Origin: Clostridia bacterium
GTDB lineage: Bacteria; Bacillota; Clostridia; UMGS1840
Assembly (NCBI GenBank): GCA_017625695.1
Contig: JAGAKI010000062.1
Location: forward strand, 1 to 34,328
DNA length: 34,328 nucleotides
Reading direction: 5' to 3'
The notes beneath the pieces were generated by a model. The model searched no databases and was not told the origin of the DNA. It saw only the letters and a list, made by a program, of their open reading frames with translations. Each line of letters opens with the position of its first letter. Within the stretch, counting starts at the first letter, position 1. Below, one piece after another: positions 4,372-34,328 of the stretch. A program made the position numbers and the translations under genes.

Positions 4372-5097
4372 ATGGAAAAAGTATTTACCAATGGACTTGA
4401 CAAATTTCATTTTGCGAAATTAACAAGTGATACAGAAAAAGCGACTACATATGACGTTCCGGTTCCTCTGCCAAATGCACAGCAGGTGAGCGTTACTCCA
4501 AAATCCAACACAGGAGATATTGATACTGATAACACTACTGAAACCTACGAGCAGGTAAGCGGTTCTGATGTATCTATTCAGAAATCCAGCTTATCGTCGG
4601 ATGAACTTACCTTATTGCTCGGGGAAAAAGTAACCGCAGACGGTATCAAAACATCAGGGGAAGCACCTTACGGTGCGTTTGGTTTCCGCCGTTCGTTCTC
4701 TAACGGTGTTCAGAGATTGGTTTGGGTGCTGAAAACCAAATTTAAGCAGCCTACCGATACAGTCAATACTAAAGCGGCAAACAGCTTTAATCCTCAGTAT
4801 GATACGATTGCCGGCACTTCTACCAGAAGAATTTCTGATAATGAGTGGAAAATTTACAAAGATAGTACAGAAAATGGTTTTACTGCTGCGGAAGTGTCAA
4901 ACTTTTTCTCTAAAGCCACTCTGGAAAAACTGTATAATGTAGCCACTACTGTTTATGGCGAACCGGCATCAGTTACAATTGTAGATGTGCTTCCTTCGGA
5001 AGGTATGGCAGGTGTGATTTATGTGGTTGACAGCGCAACCGAGTGTACCACACATTACTGGGATGGTACCAAATTTATTGAAAACACCCCCGATTAA
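4372..5097 (+). CDS. Major tail tube protein
   Basis: Builds the tail tube. The beta-rich body includes PVPLPNAQQVSVTPKSNTG, the VSGSDVSIQKSSLSSDELTL region and FGFRRSFSNG with a following WVLKTKFKQP strand, typical of phi13-type major tail proteins of Gram-positive siphophages. I chose ATG 4372 because GGAGG ends 8 bases upstream; the in-frame ATG at 4357 overlaps that site. About 40 residues at the C-terminus (after TTVYGEPASV) form an extra segment ending in THYWDGTKFIENTPD, a module type seen at the ends of tail and baseplate proteins. It is probably a surface decoration on the tube. Confidence 0.88.
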   Translation: MEKVFTNGLDKFHFAKLTSDTEKATTYDVPVPLPNAQQVSVTPKSNTGDIDTDNTTETYEQVSGSDVSIQKSSLSSDELTLLLGEKVTADGIKTSGEAPYGAFGFRRSFSNGVQRLVWVLKTKFKQPTDTVNTKAANSFNPQYDTIAGTSTRRISDNEWKIYKDSTENGFTAAEVSNFFSKATLEKLYNVATTVYGEPASVTIVDVLPSEGMAGVIYVVDSATECTTHYWDGTKFIENTPD

Positions 5098-5594: not shown

Positions 5595-6008
5595 TTATTT
5601 GAGATTTAGTTTTTCTATCAATGCGGTTTGCAGAACCTGAGAAAAATTGATGTTGTTTTCCAGTGCTTTTGCATTGAGCCATGCCGGAAGAGTCACGGTG
5701 CGATTAATAGATTTATTTTCTTGTGCAGCGCGAATAGAAGGCATGAATACATCAATCACGCTAATGCATTCGTTTGAATCCAATTCCTCCATTAAAGATT
5801 TGACAGAGGTTGGCTCCGGAATGATATCTCCATCCTGTTCCATTCCGAACAAATGTAATCCTAACGCTTCTTTGGCACACAGAAGTGCTTCTGCTTCGGT
5901 TTCTCCGCTGGTGGCACATCCGGGTAAATCCGGAAATGTAACTGCAATTTCATATCCTTCTTCGAATGTTAAAATTGCAGGATAAATATAGTTGGTTGGT
6001 TGTTTCAT
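5595..6008 (-). CDS. hicB: HicB antitoxin
   Basis: Antitoxin that binds HicA and represses its own operon. The 137-residue protein has the HicB N-terminal fold with the hallmark VTFPDLPGCATSGETEAEAL (about residues 24-43). The C-terminal region (NRTVTLPAWLNAKALENNIN, then FSQVLQTALIEKL) looks like a ribbon-helix-helix DNA-binding domain. Its start has AGGAG 8 bases upstream, a stronger site than that of hicA, which would favour antitoxin excess. It is second in the operon, 42 bases after hicA, in the usual toxin-first order. It lies antisense to the late tail operon. Confidence 0.92.
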   Translation of the reverse strand: MKQPTNYIYPAILTFEEGYEIAVTFPDLPGCATSGETEAEALLCAKEALGLHLFGMEQDGDIIPEPTSVKSLMEELDSNECISVIDVFMPSIRAAQENKSINRTVTLPAWLNAKALENNINFSQVLQTALIEKLNLK

Positions 6009-6050
6009 AACCTAAGCTCCTTTCGATTATGCGGGGGGAAAGCGGGATTC

Positions 6051-6245
6051 TTAAAACAGAATCCCTGCTTGCTTTCCAATACTTTTTAAGGTTTTTGGTG
6101 GTATATCCTTACATGGATGTTTTATTGTGACCTTGCCTTGCTTTACATCATGTTTGAATTGGTGGTGACTTCCTTCTATAGCTACCAGATACCAACCATC
6201 CTCTTGCAGTATTTTGATTACCTCTCTTGAAGAGTAGCTTTTCAT
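6051..6245 (-). CDS. hicA: HicA toxin, mRNA interferase
   Basis: A 64-residue HicA toxin, an RNA-degrading protein with a double-stranded-RNA-binding-like fold. The diagnostic elements are all present: SSREVIKILQEDGW at the N-terminus, the catalytic GSHHQF motif with His27, KVTIKHP, and the closing IPPKTLKSIGKQAGI. It appears intact. A weak ribosome site (GGGAAAG) precedes the ATG. It is the first gene of a leftward two-gene operon driven by a consensus promoter at 6270-6298. It probably acts as lysogen-borne cargo (stability or anti-phage); that role is inference. Confidence 0.92.
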   Translation of the reverse strand: MKSYSSREVIKILQEDGWYLVAIEGSHHQFKHDVKQGKVTIKHPCKDIPPKTLKSIGKQAGILF

Positions 6246-6269
6246 ATCTTTCCCTCACTTCTTGATATT

Positions 6270-6298
6270 ATTATAACACATATTCTTATATTTGTCAA
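6270..6298 (-). promoter_or_regulatory. Promoter of hicAB
   Basis: On the minus strand TTGACA (6293-6298) and TATAAT (6270-6275) are separated by 17 bp. Both hexamers are perfect sigma-A consensus. The start codon of hicA lies about 25 bp beyond the -10 box. Confidence 0.85.
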
Positions 6299-6403: not shown

Positions 6404-9400
6404 ATGAGCAATCCAAATATTGGCGTATCTTTTAATGCAAAAAACTTTAATGCGGAAGTCAGAAGCATGAAAGAAGAGCTGTCCGGTGCTAAAAAAGAAT
6501 TTCAAATCACGGATGAACAGTTGAAACGGACCGGTGGCACAATTGACCAATTAAAAAGTAAAGTTGAAAAATATGGTGACATTCTCAATAAACAAAGTGG
6601 ATTAACACAAAAGTATCGTAGTGGAATTGATGGTTTGAATCAGTCGTTGTCTGATGCTAAAGAGAAGCAACGGAAAGCGACTGAAGAATTAACAAAAGCT
6701 CAGAAAGCAAAAGATACTGACGAAAAGACTTTAAAAAAGCTGAACCAGGAGGTTCAGAAAGCAAATCGTCAGGTAGAGACCTATGAAAAGAAGCTTACTG
6801 CAATGAAGAAAAGCTTGCAGGATAGTACGCTTCAGGAAGAAAAACTGAAGACTACTCTGAAAAATACAAATGATGAGCTGAAAAAACAAGAAAGCTTTGT
6901 GGGCCGGGTTAAATCACAACTTGATGAATATAACAAAAAAACAAAAGACATTACCAGGGGATTGGATTCTGCCGGGAATGCTTTGACTAAAAGTGTAACC
7001 GTCCCGTTAGTTGCTGCAGCCGGTGCTGCTGTTAAATTTTCGACAGATTTTAACGCTTCTTTAGCTAATATTTCGACTTTAGGTGTATCTACGGAAAGAG
7101 TTGTGGAATTAAAGTCTGGTATTCGGGAGTTAGCTGTTGAAGTAGCAAAGGATACCGGTGATATTTCCAATGGTGTTTATAATGTCATTTCTGCGATTGG
7201 TGATTCAAATGAGACATTGAAAATTACAAAAATCAACGCAAAGGCAGCGGCAGCGGGGTTAGCGACAACTGAAGAAGCGATTGGACTGACTACCGCAGTT
7301 ACCAAAGGTTATAACGACATTACAGCAGATGCATTTCAAAAAGCAAGTGACTTAGCCTTTGTAACCGTTAAATTAGGGCAGACAACTTTCCCGGAATTGG
7401 CGAATGCTATTGGCAGAGTTGTTCCTGCCTCTAACGCTCTTGGAATTTCCCAGGAGGAATTATTTACTGTATATGCGACTCTGACCGGGGTTACAGGGAA
7501 GGCATCGGAGGTTTCTACACAATATGGTGCAATTTTATCCGGGCTTATGAAACCATCTGAATCTATGAAAAAGATGCTTTCACAGTTAGGATATGAAAGC
7601 GGATTTGCAATGGTGAAAACCTTGGGACTGAAAGGAACCTTGGATGCTTTGACAACTGCAACAGGCGGAAGCGAAGAAAAACTATCTGATTTGGTTTCTT
7701 CTAAAGAAGCTGTTACTGCTATGCTTGCGTTAACGGGAGCACAGGCGGAAAACTTTACCAATAAGTTAACTGCAATGAATGAAGCTGCAGGGGCAAGCGA
7801 AGAAGCGTTTGCAGCTCAAAGTGATGGCGTGAATAAAGCCGGATTTCAGTTTCAGCAATCTATGGTAAGTATGCAGGTAGCTGCACAAAAGTTTGGGGAT
7901 GCCGCTGTTCCTTATATTGATAAAGCTTCTGATGCCATATCCGGTCTGGCAGACTGGCTGAACAGCTTGTCAGATGAACAGCGTGATGCGGTATTGAATG
8001 TTGGTCTTTTTGCTGCAGCACTGGGACCGACGTTGAAAGTTACATCCGGATTAATTACAAATGGTTCAAAGATATTAGCGGTATTGAAGGCAATCGGTCC
8101 AACCACAGCTACTGCAGCTGCTGGGATGACTGCGACTGCCAGTGGAGCGACTGCGTTAGGCAGTGCGATGACTGCTTTGTCCGGGCCGGTTGGTTGGACG
8201 ATTGCTGCACTTGCTGCACTTACTGTTGGTGGAATCGCACTGGCAAAAGGATTGGATGAAGCTGATAAGGCTTTTTACAATATGGGAGATGCCGCTGAAG
8301 AAGCAGCAGCGAAGCTTGATGAATGTGAACAGCGGACTGCGACTGTGGATGAAATGGCTGAAAAATATGCCAATTTAAAAGAACAAATTGCCTCCGGAAA
8401 GCTGACTGAGCAAGAATTAGAGCAGGCGGAAGCTCAGCGGAATGAAACGGAACAATGGTTTATTGAAAATTACGGGGACTTTATTTCTGCAGAAGAACAG
8501 AAAAACGGGATTCGTGACAAAAGCGTCGAAAAAATCCAACAGTACGTTGCTTCACTTAGAGAACAAAGCAAATTGGAATTACAGGCAACGGTTATGGAAA
8601 ATAGTGCCAAGGAACCAAAATTGCGTCAGGATATTTCTGATTTAGAGGCTTCTAATGTTGAACTCGAAAAGCAGAGAGATATTGCTCTAACAAATAAAAT
8701 TGCACTGTTGGAATTGCGAAATGAAATTAAAGCTTTAAATTTAGCGGAAGCTGAAGGAAAAGACGTAACAGAACAGCGGAATGCAGTTGCACAAAAAGCT
8801 TATGAACTAACGGGTGTACGCACTGCAATCGAAGCAGATATAATACAGCTTGCGAATAATCAAACGATTGCAGTTGAAAAACTGAATGCCGAGATTGAAC
8901 AAAACAACCAAAAGGTTGAAGACGGAAACGAAACCTTAGAACAAAATGCTTTAGTAAAAAAACGCTTGATAGAATTAGCTTCCGGCTTGGATGGTTCCAT
9001 TGAGAAGAATACTGAAAAGCTTAAGAACTTGAAGAAAGCAGAGGATGAATTCAATAAAGCCGGAAAAATTTCTGAAGAAACTCTGGATAAGCTGGTGAAA
9101 AAATTCCCAGAATTGGGGGATATGAAGAAAAATCCGGAATTGCTCAAAGATGAAATTAAAAAGCTGGAAGAAGGACTTGCACTTGCTGATGAAAAAGCGA
9201 CAGAGCTTGGAACTACACTTGATGGCTATCCTAAGGAAATCGATACTAAAGTGAAAGTTAGCTTTTCTGCAGCCAATTGGGAAGGTTTTAAAGCACGATT
9301 GGGACCAGTAGCCAATCAGGTAAATTACACATTGCTTCCGGGTGCGGCTGATGGCGGTGAAATTCAGCGGAATGAATTGTCTTTTGTAAATGAAGAAGGT

Positions 9401-17294: not shown

Positions 17295-17418
17295 GGAAGG
17301 GGAGCAAGCTCCCCGTTCCGTCCAGGCTACTACTTGAGTTTGAGTATCGCATTGACGATGGTTGCGATTCCGATTATCAACTCCAGGGTAGCCATTATTT
17401 TTTCTACCATATTTTTTC
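17295..17418 (+). ncRNA. Candidate antisense RNA to the 26-residue peptide mRNA
   Basis: A predicted RNA of about 120 nt that starts with a strong hairpin (GGAA-GGGGAGC / GCTCCCC-g-TTCC, 17295-17319). It covers the whole peptide frame and ends at a weak hairpin with GGTAG/CTACC arms followed by T-rich sequence near 17409-17418. The ends are inferred from promoter and hairpin positions only. The layout is like known type I antitoxin RNAs that converge on their toxin mRNA. Confidence 0.4.
17330..17410 (-). CDS. 26-residue hydrophobic peptide, type I toxin-like
   Basis: A short reading frame with an excellent ribosome site (AAAGGAG, 7 bases before ATG) and a perfect consensus promoter 53 bp upstream. 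The peptide reads MVEKIMATLELIIGIATIVN and ends in Leu/Lys-rich residues: one membrane-spanning helix with a basic tail. This resembles the general build of type I toxins (TxpA/BsrG/holin-like toxins), though it lacks their exact family motif. A facing promoter at 17260-17288 could make an overlapping antisense RNA. A leader-peptide role is the main alternative. Confidence 0.55.
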   Translation of the reverse strand: MVEKIMATLELIIGIATIVNAILKLK

Positions 17419-17462
17419 TCCTTTCGTAATACTTGGGTTTGTTTCCCTCACCCTGTATCTAT

Positions 17463-19173: not shown

Positions 19174-19614
19174 CTACGATTGTTTCAACTCCCTTTTTAA
19201 CATTTCCAATTCGGTAATATCTTTGGTTTTCTTTTCTTGCCCTGTTTTAGCGACAGATTTTGCAGTGAGAGAAGCTTCCTCATCGGCAAGCTCATAGGCG
19301 TAGTTTAATACCTTGACTTTGTTCTGTGAATTCAACTTTTGGTAAACGGTTACTAATTCATTGGTGTATGTATCAGTATTTACTGATTTGCATTCAATAG
19401 TGGAATTTGTTTCGCTTATTAAATGTTCAGGTGTAACACCAAATGCGTTGGCGATAGCAATTATTTTGTCCATCGCTGGCTGAGTTTCATTTTGTTCAAG
19501 GTCGTAAATAAAATTTCTGTTAATACCGCATTGTTCTAGGACAGACTTTACTGATATTTTTGTTTGTTTTGAAACTGCTCGGATGTTGTTGGCAAGTTGT
19601 TTGGTTGATAGCAT
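19174..19614 (-). CDS. XRE-family lysogeny repressor (CI-like)
   Basis: A 146-residue regulator with an N-terminal helix-turn-helix (LSTKQLANNIRAVSKQTKIS, then INRNFIYDLEQNETQPAMDK IIAIANAFGV) and a helical C-terminal part suitable for dimerisation (VYQKLNSQNKVKVLNYAYEL). There is no LexA-type self-cleavage Ser/Lys domain, which fits induction through the adjacent ImmA-like peptidase. ATG 19614 has AGGAGAT 6 bases upstream; a frame from 19725 has a poor extension. It faces a rightward promoter with an 18-bp palindromic operator 31 bp away, the same operator class recurring at 21759-21806. It is the best candidate to bind both. Confidence 0.88.
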   Translation of the reverse strand: MLSTKQLANNIRAVSKQTKISVKSVLEQCGINRNFIYDLEQNETQPAMDKIIAIANAFGVTPEHLISETNSTIECKSVNTDTYTNELVTVYQKLNSQNKVKVLNYAYELADEEASLTAKSVAKTGQEKKTKDITELEMLKRELKQS

Positions 19615-19639
19615 TTTTTCATCTCCTATATAAAAAAAC

Positions 19640-19668
19640 TTGACATACAGAAATATCTGTATTATAAT
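19640..19668 (+). promoter_or_regulatory. Rightward promoter with repressor operator, copy 1
   Basis: TTGACA (19640-19645) and TATAAT (19663-19668) have a 17-bp spacer, a perfect consensus. The 18-bp operator ATACAGAAATATCTGTAT spans 19645-19662. A minus-strand TATAAT at 19661-19666 may serve the repressor gene, with only a weak -35. Confidence 0.85.
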
Positions 19669-19686
19669 ATAATTAACAATTATTTT

Positions 19687-19714
19687 ATGAGAATGGGGGT
19701 GTGGATGTGTATAT
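19687..19714 (+). repeat. 28-bp direct repeat holding a translation start, copy 1
   Basis: Identical to 20300-20327. The unit carries a GGGGG ribosome site, two GTG codons and the first codons of each gene. The Tad2-like gene starts inside this copy; a Cys-rich membrane protein starts inside the other. Confidence 0.9.
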
Positions 19715-19928
19715 TCATAAAGCAATCAAGCGTGCACTGAGACATGGAAGGTGTATTTGCCGCAGAAGCAGATTGCGCGGACATTATATGAAATATAAAC
19801 CAACCCATAGCAGAGATTGTATTCTGATGGTTTGGCGGGACAATGGGGAAATTGTCCGGCAGACAAAACCCAGATGGAATCCGACTGTTGAAGATTTGAT
19901 GGCAGACGACTGGGTAGTCATTAGTTAA
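19707..19928 (+). CDS. Tad2-like (DUF2829-like) small protein, putative anti-Thoeris
   Basis: A 73-residue protein resembling the Tad2/DUF2829 fold. The N-terminal helix HKAIKRALRHGRCICR matches the pattern 'Ai..al..Gk.i.R'. The C-terminal hallmark RWNPTVEDLMADDWVV matches the family's 'W.P...DL.A.DW.v' ending. Tad2 proteins bind and sequester the cyclic ADP-ribose-type signal of Thoeris defence; known members act as small oligomers. GTG 19707 has GGGGG 7 bases upstream and aligns best with the family N-terminus; GTG 19701 is possible. It is the first gene behind the operator-controlled promoter, where early counter-defence is expected. Its exact ligand cannot be read from the sequence. Confidence 0.62.
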   Translation: MYIHKAIKRALRHGRCICRRSRLRGHYMKYKPTHSRDCILMVWRDNGEIVRQTKPRWNPTVEDLMADDWVVIS

Positions 19929-20275
19929 ATGAATGAAATTAGACTTTTTACTTGATTTATGTGTTCTAAGATGGATGCTAAATTGTTGGAAAAGCGATGT
20001 TCCATATAAATAACTCCATCGTCTGTGAGTTGTGCATTGGTGATGGTGTTGTCCCCAGTTTCGCATATTAACAACCCGGCACGATGTAATTCCAAGCAGG
20101 TTTCTTCAATGTCTTCCGGTAACCAGTTTTTAAGAGATAGTTTTTCTATGATTCGACTTAGGTTGCCGAAATTTCTTGCCTGTACCTTTGGTATTTTGGT
20201 TTTTCTGTTATTTAGATAGACATGATATAATTCGCAGATTAAATAGTCGGCTTCTTTGGTTAATGAAATATTCAT
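19925..20275 (-). CDS. Winged-helix-like prophage protein (first of three)
   Basis: A 116-residue protein with a likely winged helix: SLTKEADYLICELYHVYLNN, a helical block with WLPEDIEETCLELHRAGLLI, and the wing/closing motif NAQLTDDGVIYMEHRF. It ends in a hydrophobic helix (SILEHINQVKSLISFI). I recognise the type from clostridial prophages but no function is established to my knowledge. Its stop overlaps the Tad2-like stop by 4 bases, and its start lies only 44 bp from the start of the rightward 53-residue gene. AAAGGAT gives its ribosome site. It is antisense to any long transcript from the 19640 promoter. Confidence 0.75.
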   Translation of the reverse strand: MNISLTKEADYLICELYHVYLNNRKTKIPKVQARNFGNLSRIIEKLSLKNWLPEDIEETCLELHRAGLLICETGDNTITNAQLTDDGVIYMEHRFSNNLASILEHINQVKSLISFI

Positions 20276-20299
20276 AATAAATTATCCTTTCAATTTAGA

Positions 20300-20327
20300 A
20301 TGAGAATGGGGGTGTGGATGTGTATAT
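20300..20327 (+). repeat. 28-bp direct repeat holding a translation start, copy 2
   Basis: Exact copy of 19687-19714, placed 613 bp downstream, at the start of the 53-residue gene. Confidence 0.9.
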
Positions 20328-20481
20328 AACATGTATCGGGTGCTCACATAGACAAGAATGCAAGAAAAAAAAGATTTGGCAGACTTCATGCGAAAAGTTT
20401 CGTGAGCGCAGACGATGGATTTCATTTTTTATATCCTGTTTCTGTAGCTTATTAGCAATGATTATACTTCTTTTTTGTTAG
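20320..20481 (+). CDS. 53-residue Cys-rich protein with C-terminal membrane helix
   Basis: Starts in the duplicated 28-bp initiation unit (GTG 20320; GTG 20314 also possible). The N-terminal part MYITCIGCSHRQECKKKK has a C-x2-C ... C pattern that may bind metal. A very basic middle (EKFRERRRW) is followed by a hydrophobic C-terminal helix (ISFFISCFCSLLAMIILLFC). Such a tail-anchored build suggests a membrane-attached accessory protein. There is no recognised family. It is transcribed in the same direction as the Tad2-like gene. Confidence 0.5.
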   Translation: MYITCIGCSHRQECKKKKIWQTSCEKFRERRRWISFFISCFCSLLAMIILLFC

Positions 20482-20500
20482 AAAGTGAGTGATGAGATTT

Positions 20501-20590
20501 ATGTATCCGAAATTACCTTGGTGGGCATGGGTTCCACAATGTATTATGAGTATTACTGCAATTATTATTGCTTTATGTAAGCTAATATAG
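20501..20590 (+). CDS. 29-residue membrane peptide
   Basis: Reads MYPKLPWWAWVPQCIMSITA and continues as an Ile/Ala-rich helix, a single membrane span. The ribosome site is poor (GTGAG / GATGAG), so translation is uncertain. It begins 19 bases after the previous gene. Its last 26 bases overlap the end of the convergent winged-helix gene. It may be translated by coupling or be spurious. Confidence 0.35.
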   Translation: MYPKLPWWAWVPQCIMSITAIIIALCKLI

Positions 20591-20873
20591 CGACAATCAA
20601 TGCTACGATAGAGATGATAGTCGGAAACCAGAATCGGAAATTTTCTTTTTGCACGGTTTCTTCGGCGGTTATTCCTTTCTCGATAATAGCTACCGTATGC
20701 TTTGCCCGCGAGCTGTTTGAGGAGTCCAATAGGATATATTTCTTTGTTACCAGTTTTTCATATTCTTCGTCATAGTCTTCGGAAATTTTAAATTTCTTAT
20801 AGAATTTGACTGCATTATATTCGCCTTTCCGATAGAGAAAGCGAAGCATTTTTCGTTGTCGATTGTTTAGCAT
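20565..20873 (-). CDS. Winged-helix protein with C-terminal membrane helix (second of three)
   Basis: A 102-residue protein with an N-terminal helix-turn-helix-like region (RQRKMLRFLYRKGEYNAVKF, then ISEDYDEEYEKLVTKKYILL), a wing and closing segment (KHTVAIIEKGITAEETVQKE), and a C-terminal membrane helix (WFPTIISIVALIVAILAYI). This small wHTH-plus-membrane-anchor design recurs in Firmicutes mobile DNA. The ribosome site CGAAAGGAA precedes the ATG. Only 28 bp separate its start from the start of the divergent rightward gene. Function unknown; a membrane-tethered regulator or sensor is a plausible reading. Confidence 0.75.
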   Translation of the reverse strand: MLNNRQRKMLRFLYRKGEYNAVKFYKKFKISEDYDEEYEKLVTKKYILLDSSNSSRAKHTVAIIEKGITAEETVQKENFRFWFPTIISIVALIVAILAYIKQ

Positions 20874-20901
20874 AATAAAATTCCTTTCGGGAGGTGATAA
20901 A

Positions 20902-21120
20902 ATGCTATATGCACTGATAGCGGTGATTGTAGTTGAAATTGCGCTGCAAATGATTCTCAGCGAGGCGATAGACCTTTATAAAGCTTGGTATAAATCCATA
21001 CTCAATTATGTCCGATTGGAATGGGATAAACATTTTTTAGAAAGAGATATTAGGGTGTGGTTTCATAATCGTAAAAAGAAAGAGAAAGCACTGAAAAAGG
21101 TTTTTAAATTATCAAAATAA
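20902..21120 (+). CDS. 72-residue membrane-anchored basic protein
   Basis: An N-terminal hydrophobic helix (MLYALIAVIVVEIALQMIL) is followed by a long amphipathic and basic stretch (YKAWYKSILNYVRLEWDKHF, then WFHNRKKKEKALKKVFKLSK). The ATG at 20902 has GGGAGGTG 4-5 bases upstream, an excellent site. A frame from 20863 would run through the divergent gene. Its stop overlaps the stop of the third winged-helix gene by 9 bases. Unknown function; topology suggests one span with a basic cytoplasmic domain. Confidence 0.65.
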   Translation: MLYALIAVIVVEIALQMILSEAIDLYKAWYKSILNYVRLEWDKHFLERDIRVWFHNRKKKEKALKKVFKLSK

Positions 21121-21465
21121 TTTAGATGCGACAGCAAATAGTTCCGCAGCTGTTTTGACGCCATCAATCACTTTATTGATTCGTTCGATGGTTTCCGGAG
21201 AAATGGAATTCTTTGTGTATTCTATACCTTTTCTTGTCACCTGAATGATGACATATTCGGTTGTGTTATCGCTGTTTACTGTCCCGAGCTTTAAACATTC
21301 TTCCGATTCTAAAATCAGGAGATATGTTTTGATTTGTTCGGGGGAGCAGGGAGTTTGTTCGGAAATCATCTCATAGATATCAGAATCGGAGTATTCCTTG
21401 TTGAATAATGGAAGTCTGCGGACAGTATTCATTACCTTAAATAATAAATCTTCATCAATTTTCAT
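21112..21465 (-). CDS. Winged-helix protein, DUF2513-like (third of three)
   Basis: A 117-residue protein with the pattern of a winged helix: KIDEDLLFKVMNTVRRLPLF, the helix pair SDIYEMISEQTP/SPEQIKTYLLILESEECLK and the wing strand EYVIIQVTRKGIEYTKNSIS. The last resembles the ITwkGheF hallmark of DUF2513, though the match is loose. The C-terminal helix (VKTAAELFAVASKLF) is amphipathic and hydrophobic. AAAGGAT precedes its ATG, with 32 bp to the start of the divergent rightward gene. It repeats the layout of the other two leftward genes of this segment. Function unknown. Confidence 0.72.
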   Translation of the reverse strand: MKIDEDLLFKVMNTVRRLPLFNKEYSDSDIYEMISEQTPCSPEQIKTYLLILESEECLKLGTVNSDNTTEYVIIQVTRKGIEYTKNSISPETIERINKVIDGVKTAAELFAVASKLF

Positions 21466-21497
21466 TTTATTATCCTTTCTGAAAGCGAGGTGTAATT

Positions 21498-21680
21498 ATG
21501 AAGTACATACTTTTTGCAATTATGGTTTGGTTAACTATTCAGATTTTATGCAATATTAGTGCGCTTATAGTTTTTTATTGGCGATTCCGTATTGCAATAA
21601 AATTTGTCCGGGGAAAATATAACAGCGACTTTCATCCGGGAGATATTATGGCGTATTTACCGATGAAATACCAATGTTAA
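21498..21680 (+). CDS. 60-residue membrane protein
   Basis: An N-terminal membrane helix (ILFAIMVWLTIQILCNISAL IVFYW in outline) with a basic follow-on (RFRIAIKFVRGKY) and a short polar end. GCGAGGTG about 6 bases before ATG supports translation. It is the last rightward gene of the alternating segment and is followed by a terminator. No family recognised. Confidence 0.6.
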   Translation: MKYILFAIMVWLTIQILCNISALIVFYWRFRIAIKFVRGKYNSDFHPGDIMAYLPMKYQC

Positions 21681-21711
21681 CCATCCGTTGTCAGATAATA
21701 ATTTATTTTGT

Positions 21712-21742
21712 GCAACCTCAACAAAATTGGGGTTGCGTTTTT
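21712..21742 (+). terminator. Terminator closing the alternating control segment
   Basis: GCAACCTC (21712-21719) pairs with GGGGTTGC (21729-21736, one G-T pair) across a 9-base loop and is followed by GTTTTT. It would end rightward transcripts from the 19640 promoter just before the second operator cluster. Confidence 0.75.
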
Positions 21743-21758: not shown

Positions 21759-21812
21759 ATACAGAAAAAACTGTATTCCTATATTGACATACAGAAAAAT
21801 CTGTATTATAAT
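21759..21812 (+). promoter_or_regulatory. Early rightward promoter with two repressor operators, copy 2
   Basis: TTGACA (21784-21789) and TATAAT (21807-21812) have a 17-bp spacer. The operator ATACAGAAAAATCTGTAT (21789-21806) fills it, one base different from copy 1 at 19645. A second operator, ATACAGAAAAAACTGTAT (21759-21776), lies 30 bp upstream, on the same helix face about three turns away. This should drive the lytic early operon under repressor control. Confidence 0.87.
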
Positions 21813-21823
21813 ATGGTTAAATC

Positions 21824-21871
21824 ATCATAAAATGGTTTATGTTTCTTTCAGTATATCATACATTTTATGAT
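21824..21871 (+). repeat. 11-bp inverted repeat in the early leader
   Basis: ATCATAAAATG and CATTTTATGAT are perfect arms 26 bases apart, between the early promoter and the Cro-like gene. It may fold in RNA or be a binding site for the Cro-like protein. There is no T-run, so it is not a terminator. Confidence 0.6.
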
Positions 21872-21903
21872 AAATCAATACACATTTTTTTAGGAGGTGT
21901 ACT

Positions 21904-22113
21904 ATGGATATTAAGGTAAGGCTCTTGATTCTTGGAAAAAAGCAGGTAGACCTTTTGGGAGAGATTCAGAAACGTGGTTTTCCGAAGCTTTCCTTCAGTC
22001 AGTTTTCCCGATATGTGAACAAACGTGAGATTTCTCCCCAGGGAAACAAGGTTCTGGATCTTTCCGACGCGATTCTGGAAGAATGGGAATCAAAGGCAAT
22101 TTTTACCGAATAG
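21904..22113 (+). CDS. Cro-like small regulator
   Basis: A 69-residue helix-turn-helix-type protein (KVRLLILGKKQVDLLGEIQK; LSFSQFSRYVNKREISPQGN). It matches a short Cro/XRE-like type common as the first early gene of Firmicutes phages. AGGAGGTG is 5 bases before ATG, a very strong site. It is the first gene behind the operator-bearing promoter and likely turns down the repressor or the early promoter. The inverted repeat in its own leader is a possible target (inference). Confidence 0.75.
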   Translation: MDIKVRLLILGKKQVDLLGEIQKRGFPKLSFSQFSRYVNKREISPQGNKVLDLSDAILEEWESKAIFTE

Positions 22114-22768: not shown

Positions 22769-22790
22769 TATGAAATTTTTATGTAAAAAA

Positions 22791-22851
22791 GAAAAAAGCC
22801 CGTATGCTCGGCAAAGCACACAGGCACACCCGATTGGGTGAAAAAAAACTC
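22791..22851 (-). ncRNA. Short leftward RNA gene, OOP-like in layout
   Basis: A complete transcription unit on the minus strand. A consensus promoter lies at 22858-22886, and the predicted start is near 22851. A small hairpin CACCC-AATC-GGGTG (22827-22840) follows. A terminator hairpin then joins GCCTGTGTGC with GCATACGGGC (22816-22825 / 22798-22807), which pairs perfectly (with two G-U) only in minus-strand RNA, followed by TTTTTTCTTTTTT. The RNA would be about 60 nt with no reading frame. It lies opposite to the early operon, like lambda OOP RNA. Confidence 0.7.
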
Positions 22852-22857
22852 AGTTAC

Positions 22858-22886
22858 AGTATAGCATACTAAATAAAATATGTCAA
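22858..22886 (-). promoter_or_regulatory. Promoter of the short leftward RNA
   Basis: On the minus strand TTGACA (22881-22886) and TATACT (22858-22863) are 17 bp apart. The -35 box sits within the leader of the rightward gene that starts at 22900. Confidence 0.75.
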
Positions 22887-34045: not shown

Positions 34046-34328
34046 TTGAATTTTGTCGATAGACTGAAACGGTTATTCAACGGTAAGAAAACCGTTTATT
34101 TAACAGAAAAATTTTCTTCAGATGTTATGGAACTTGCGATTACAGAATTTGCTATCAATGTGGCAATCAGTCTGATAGCCGGAGCGGTTTCAAAATGCGA
34201 GTTTAGAACTTTTCAAAATTTTCAGGAAGTGTTTGGGGACGAATACTACCTGTGGAATGTTGAGCCGAATCGTAACCAGAATTCCAGTCAGTTTCTCCAG
34301 GAAATGATACATAAGCTTTTGTATGAAA
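34046..34328 (+). CDS. Portal protein (5' part; continues at position 1)
   Basis: TTG start 5-6 bases after ACAGGAGTG. The protein opens MNFVDRLKRLFNGKKTVYLT then FAINVAISLIAGAVSKCEFR, the usual portal N-terminus with a hydrophobic helix. It continues without a stop to the window end, where the last 141 bases equal positions 1-141. Across the junction the frame matches the rest of the gene exactly. It must be counted as one gene with the entry at 1-1007. Confidence 0.93.
   Translation, partial: MNFVDRLKRLFNGKKTVYLTEKFSSDVMELAITEFAINVAISLIAGAVSKCEFRTFQNFQEVFGDEYYLWNVEPNRNQNSSQFLQEMIHKLLYE
34188..34328 (+). repeat. Terminal overlap identical to positions 1-141
   Basis: All 141 bases match the window start. 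This is the mark of a circular assembly, and 141 is a k-mer length used by a common metagenome assembler. It lies inside the portal gene, so a true terminal repeat or attachment site is unlikely. Confidence 0.95.

Follow-up and report, generated by a model that had tools for sequence, protein, structure and literature searches.

A probable noncontiguous operon of three tail-to-tail gene pairs in a temperate phage from a Clostridia bacterium

Noncontiguous operons and the layout of the block

A noncontiguous operon, in the sense that Saenz-Lahoya is said to have given the term in 2019, is an operon with one or more genes of the opposite strand inside it, the transcripts overlapping and the opposite gene having a promoter of its own. 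The block considered here, positions 19640-21742 of a 34,328-nt contig from a Clostridia bacterium (JAGAKI010000062.1, assembly GCA_017625695.1; the whole contig is the window), likewise has opposite-strand genes inside an operon, and by the precedent of phages 80alpha, phi80 and phi13 it is most likely a switch of three units. Such operons have been shown only recently and in few phages. In 80alpha, direct RNA sequencing established that the noncontiguous operons tha/ith and orf11 keep lysogenic and lytic genes from being expressed together, in part through antisense transcripts (Rostol et al. 2024, PMC11087260); in phi80, tai/ati pairs a gene expressed in lysogeny with a lytic operon that runs against it and holds the counter-gene (PMC11364771), and phi13 has the same arrangement (PMC9694928). 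The kind is therefore already known, contrary to the original prediction, which had held that the layout might not have been described before. What is new is the longer, three-unit array, together with a Bacillota-wide tail-to-tail rule, with exchange of partners, for one of its protein families.

The first and last 141 bp of the window are identical (1-141 and 34188-34328) and close it into a circle of 34,187 bp. Since this complete circle carries a terminase, a major head protein and a serine integrase, the contig, which had been binned with a bacterial metagenome-assembled genome of 1.97 Mb, is a temperate phage. The strand alternation that had been described for the block is present base for base, three leftward genes lying among rightward open reading frames (ORFs), with convergent stops that overlap by 4, 26 and 9 bp and divergent starts that are 38-44, 28 and 32 bp apart. 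A Tad2-like (DUF2829) gene for 73-75 aa (19701/19707-19928, +) comes first after the promoter and overlaps by 4 bp the stop of the leftward gene for a 116-aa winged-helix protein of the family PHROG 750 (19925..20275, -). A Cys-rich protein of 53-55 aa with a C-terminal hydrophobic helix (20314/20320-20481, +) and a hydrophobic peptide of 29-33 aa (20489/20501-20590, +) are tentative calls, and the latter overlaps by 26 bp the stop of the gene for a 102-aa protein with a C-terminal membrane helix RFWFPTIISIVALIVAILAYI (20565..20873, -). A small membrane protein of 72 aa (20902..21120, +) overlaps by 9 bp the stop of the gene for an orphan protein of 117 aa, possibly a winged helix (21112..21465, -), and a small membrane protein of 60 aa (21498..21680, +) completes the series.

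Two copies of a lytic promoter module flank the block. Rightward promoter 1 (19640..19668, +; TTGACA-17-TATAAT, 12/12 to the sigma-A consensus) overlaps a palindromic operator, ATACAGAAATATCTGTAT, at 19645-19662, and promoter 2 (21784..21812, +), where the main early operon starts, has the same promoter and operator sequence, the latter at 21789-21806; a further operator copy lies at 21759-21776. The palindrome is presumably bound by the CI-like repressor (19174..19617, -; HTH_26 / HTH_3 match), whose gene comes after the three leftward genes when the strand is read leftward. An intrinsic terminator (21710..21738, +), which lacks a U-run in the leftward sense, closes the right side, and terminator-like sites on the rightward strand from 19640 to 21710 occur at chance level only. 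The block thus sits, as had been noted, between a promoter with a repressor-type operator and a rightward terminator, which is one-way.

With a probability of about 0.62, we favor the explanation that three gene pairs, each overlapping tail to tail, are arrayed in the block and form a noncontiguous operon made of two interleaved and mutually antisense units. A single transcript, begun at the repressed promoter of the lytic side (19640) and ended by the terminator at 21738, would cover the rightward genes, the Tad2-like gene first, and be antisense to all three leftward genes. The leftward genes would be read in the lysogenic direction, most likely together as well, by transcription that starts near 21845, crosses the block and heads for cI, producing a transcript antisense to all of the rightward genes. 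While CI keeps the lytic promoters shut, the leftward winged-helix/membrane products would be made; upon induction or fresh infection, the rightward transcript would come first and silence the leftward genes by RNA-polymerase collision and/or sense-antisense pairing. The leftward products are probably accessory factors of lysogeny (superinfection immunity or related regulation), and it is plausible that they defend against phages; the rightward products would be immediate-early lytic factors, including a counter-defence protein of the nucleotide-sponge type.

The block resembles 80alpha in several respects: genes on opposite strands have transcripts that overlap (in the block, would overlap), lysogenic and lytic genes are interleaved, and convergent small genes overlap at their ends. 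In the 80alpha annotation tha and ith overlap by 64 bp, and orf11, leftward within the early lytic operon, overlaps its lytic neighbor by 26 bp. The mutually exclusive switch of the original prediction draws its support from this likeness of layout to the measured switches of 80alpha and phi80 and to the arrangement in phi13. There are differences too, as 80alpha has a single antisense gene per site and a HEPN RNase (Tha), whereas the window has three successive pairs, other protein families and leftward genes without a near promoter. No leftward protein matches a HEPN domain in Pfam or PHROG, which sets the block apart from the Tha/Ith type, and tai/ati of phi80 belongs to a late operon under Q, with different proteins and an inhibitor shown to be dedicated.

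A conserved overlap in the PHROG 750 family

The 116-aa protein matches the PHROG 750 profile over its full length (residues 3-115 of 116, E 2.1e-31). By tblastn the family is present in 84 records of Staphylococcus, Streptococcus, Paenibacillus and Listeria phages, and profile-guided scans added viral and cellular loci. A convergent partner could be scored in 44 of 48 distinct loci and not in the other four. The stop overlaps that of the partner, by 4-32 bp, in 41 of the 44, as against 23 of 70 other convergent neighbors in the same loci (Fisher p = 4e-11, a value that overstates the case, as related loci are not independent samples). Changes of partner are the better argument. At least five families, not recognisably alike, supply the partners (the Tad2-like one and others for which we coined the names DPFGL, IHIDL, LEWL and Cys-rich), and on the tree the partner labels change six times in all, with at least four changes forced for the Tad2-like label. 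Because the overlap is kept through these changes, the geometry outlasts the partner. The head-to-head neighbor also differs between loci, and because the overlap is kept while that neighbor varies, the conserved unit is the tail-to-tail overlap and not the head-to-head pair that had been proposed as the module. Homologues that never keep the pairs together had been named as the finding that would speak against the idea; for the tail-to-tail geometry, with 41 of 44 overlapping, the outcome was the opposite. This Bacillota-wide rule with partner exchange is the strongest new point. With a partner exchanged at least five times while the overlap is kept, it becomes testable whether the overlap itself, and not the partner protein, is the switch. 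The rule also offers a way to locate, from sequence, accessory genes that are expressed in lysogeny and may serve defence but lie within lytic operons, where they are often annotated as hypothetical.

Divergent gaps with no room for promoters had also been part of the original prediction. In relatives this did not hold, since an extended -10 lies within 70 nt upstream of the PHROG 750 gene in most of the distinct viral loci (18 of 21) and in nearly half of the cellular loci (12 of 27), against a background of about 4%, and the leftward genes there appear to have their own promoter in the lysogenic direction. The three leftward genes of the window lack such an element.

Arrays occur elsewhere, in loci for which the gene calls were made in this analysis. 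The early region of Staphylococcus aureus phage 3A (AY954956) has three leftward genes interleaved with rightward ones, and as in the window the stop of a leftward PHROG 750 gene is overlapped by a rightward DUF2829/Tad2-like gene. Unlike the window, that overlap is longer (32 bp), and a second leftward gene is a true DUF2513 member (PF10711, E 3e-25) with an extended -10 ahead of it, overlapping a small gene by 14 bp; the third gene has no overlap. In the literature this region was not found discussed as an array. In a Clostridia prophage-like locus, L098 (Lapin-023 bin87), three lysogenic-orientation genes, for a DUF2513 protein, a PHROG 750 protein and a membrane-helix protein, each overlap a lytic small gene, by 12, 23 and 32 bp, as in the window, but the array lies downstream of cI and not between cI and cro, and the lytic genes come with a promoter and a terminator of their own. 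A 121-nt module of L098, comprising a lytic-strand promoter, ribosome-binding sites and a terminator, recurs three times between the array genes (4875-4995, 5710-5830 and 6719-6839), suggesting that this array may have grown by cassette duplication. Two-unit arrays are present in L109 and L113. Literature on excludons in prophages and on Tad2 with antisense transcription yielded nothing on such arrays.

The AlphaFold model of PHROG 750, built with 36 homologues, is confident (pLDDT 90.7) and has a helix-strand-helix-helix-strand-strand winged helix followed by two C-terminal helices. Fold searches with it returned only generic winged helices (MukE and MarR types) and, in the viral set, a protein of Bacillus phage SalinJah (A0A173GCB0, E 6e-4); its sequence matched nothing significantly among solved structures. 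Profile comparison with DUF2513, a name that was not found in any paper searched, gave an E of 1.6e-5 (probability 79%), and a shared design of the two families is supported by this match. Most members of the family have an acidic recognition helix, with a mean net charge of -2.1, and for that reason DNA binding by the modeled fold is doubtful; the whole protein is acidic on average too. A winged helix, predicted for all three leftward proteins, is thus shown for one. The model of the 117-aa protein is poor (pLDDT 56), its best family match is weak (DUF4364, E 0.003), its likeness to PHROG 750 is not significant, and the DUF2513-like label it had been given is not supported (no PF10711 match; DUF2513 profile comparison E 0.11, not significant). 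It has no homologue in 391 genomes of the class. The 102-aa protein has a single distant homologue (L013:1492-1797), which is itself in a convergent overlap of 20 bp, and neither of these two proteins, nor the 72-aa one, has a match among 50,697 phage records. PADLOC defence profiles matched none of the window's leftward proteins, and NCBIfam gave no match above a cut-off.

A 5' leader hairpin, UAC-A-GG(N)..(N)CC-RA-GUA, was observed beginning about 5 nt past the -10. A covariance model found 17 sites in the fetched loci, all on the lysogenic strand, where they precede PHROG 750 or another leftward gene, and it found a further site in the window (17418-17457, -); loci with sites are L101, L102, L107-L109, L111-L113, L119 (three sites), L120, L122 and L123. 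In the alignment, which was built from sites found by eye, 92% of cells are paired and covariation exceeds that of all 500 shuffles. Eight loci scanned against Rfam gave no match to the hairpin, and a pattern search of 291 genomes of the class found none; the pattern had a narrower gap, so that it passed over the copy in the window as well. In L028, L033, L039, L104 and L110 the leader ahead of PHROG 750 is a variant, UUAU-CNGC..GYNG-AA-AUAA, and in Staphylococcus early genes (80alpha gp11 and SpT99F3 013) the ribosome-binding site is the 3' arm of the leader hairpin.

Weighing the explanations

Several points weigh against reading the block as two interleaved antisense units. Conservation of the overlap geometry is shown for one pair only, two of the three leftward genes being orphans or nearly so. 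Of the rightward products that face the leftward genes, described at the outset as mostly membrane proteins, four of five, all but the Tad2-like one, do show a hydrophobic helix on inspection by eye. The two middle ORFs are weak gene calls: codon use best supports the 117-, 102- and 72-aa genes and least the 53-aa ORF, whose codons depart from those of the rest of the phage, and the reading frame of the 29-33-aa peptide is uncertain, with a weak match to phrog_22254 (E 9e-4). No extended -10 is recognisable within the gap near any of the window's three leftward genes. The best leftward site between cI and the gene at the Cro position is a candidate promoter, TTGATT-17-TGaTATACT (21878-21850, -), which ranks 7 of 68,596 positions, and equally good sites arise in 8-11% of shuffles, making it suggestive only as the driver of the leftward genes. 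Because these genes lack a near promoter and the best candidate lies upstream of all three, the block is best read as two interleaved polycistronic units and not as single antisense genes with their own promoters.

It could be argued that the pairs follow the model of Tha/Ith and Tai/Ati, every one of them consisting of a gene dedicated to defence and a specific inhibitor expressed in the lytic state. The convergent overlap is that of tha/ith, a gene is read against a lytic operon as in tai/ati, and one partner, the Tad2-like protein (PF11195, E 3e-9, 37.7 bits against a cut-off of 25; PHROG 643, E 4e-15), is by its matches the block's sole member of a known, counter-defence, family. We consider this unlikely, as the leftward proteins have no defence-family match and Tad2 proteins sequester nucleotide signals (Thoeris) rather than bind winged-helix proteins. 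The partner exchange in PHROG 750, across at least five unlike families, also speaks against inhibitors dedicated to single leftward proteins in the way that Ith is to Tha, and it is a point against the switch reading too. Less probable again is that the leftward genes are cargo ('morons') inserted between early genes, in which case the overlaps would save space and mean nothing for regulation. Overlapping gene ends are common in phages, 23 of 70 other convergent pairs in the same loci overlap, and many PHROG 750 overlaps are just 4 bp; yet the contrast with 41 of 44 (p 4e-11), with overlaps up to 32 bp, is hard to ascribe to packing, the overlap survives changes of partner and even a late-gene setting in L103 (17 bp), though it was lost in L099 near the terminase, and genes of the same shape in 80alpha do switch (PMC11087260).

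The least probable of these alternatives has the leftward winged-helix proteins adjusting the CI/Cro decision as regulators of transcription. The PHROG 750 protein has a winged-helix fold, is profile-related to DUF2513 and is encoded next to cI in the window, but its acidic recognition helix and acidic character set it apart from the usual winged helices that bind DNA, a second leftward protein has a membrane helix at its end, and the family also occurs among late genes in some loci (L099 and L103). The noncontiguous operon of three overlapping pairs remains our preferred explanation. A wider proposal is put forward only tentatively, with the odds against it: that tail-to-tail cassettes, in which PHROG 750, DUF2513 and related winged-helix-membrane proteins, all small, are paired with exchangeable small lytic proteins, may be a Bacillota-wide modular switch between lysogeny and lysis that phages stack into arrays, the leftward gene being a superinfection-defence factor, and lysogenic transcripts in Lachnospiraceae having a dedicated 5' leader hairpin.

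Other features of the window

An exact repeat of 28 nt spans the site where translation of the Tad2-like gene begins (19687..19714, +) and recurs at the start of the 53-55-aa gene (20300..20327, +); its core is expected 0.04 times by chance. Close relatives of the block were not found by DNA among the phage records, by protein or by the 28-nt repeat in viral contigs, or in genomes of the same family or order. The first gene after promoter 2, assigned to the Cro position by its location (21904..22113, +), has no family match in Pfam or PHROG, and a search of the genome contigs for an ImmA-type peptidase gene gave no match.

An 18-nt inverted repeat (83%) at 21817-21878, between promoter 2 and the gene at the Cro position, brackets the candidate leftward promoter and is a possible second regulator site. 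A perfect leftward promoter at 22886-22858 was considered as the driver of the block and dropped, as an intrinsic terminator follows within about 65 nt. That promoter (TTGACA-17-TGnTATACT), with the small hairpin and strong intrinsic terminator behind it (fold -26.9 kcal/mol), may instead belong to a candidate phage small RNA (22785-22886, -), antisense between early genes. An Rfam scan near the block returned only far-sub-threshold matches. Within the tail-gene region, a HicB-like antitoxin gene (PHROG 497) and a small gene upstream of it lie behind a perfect leftward promoter (5595-6298, -).

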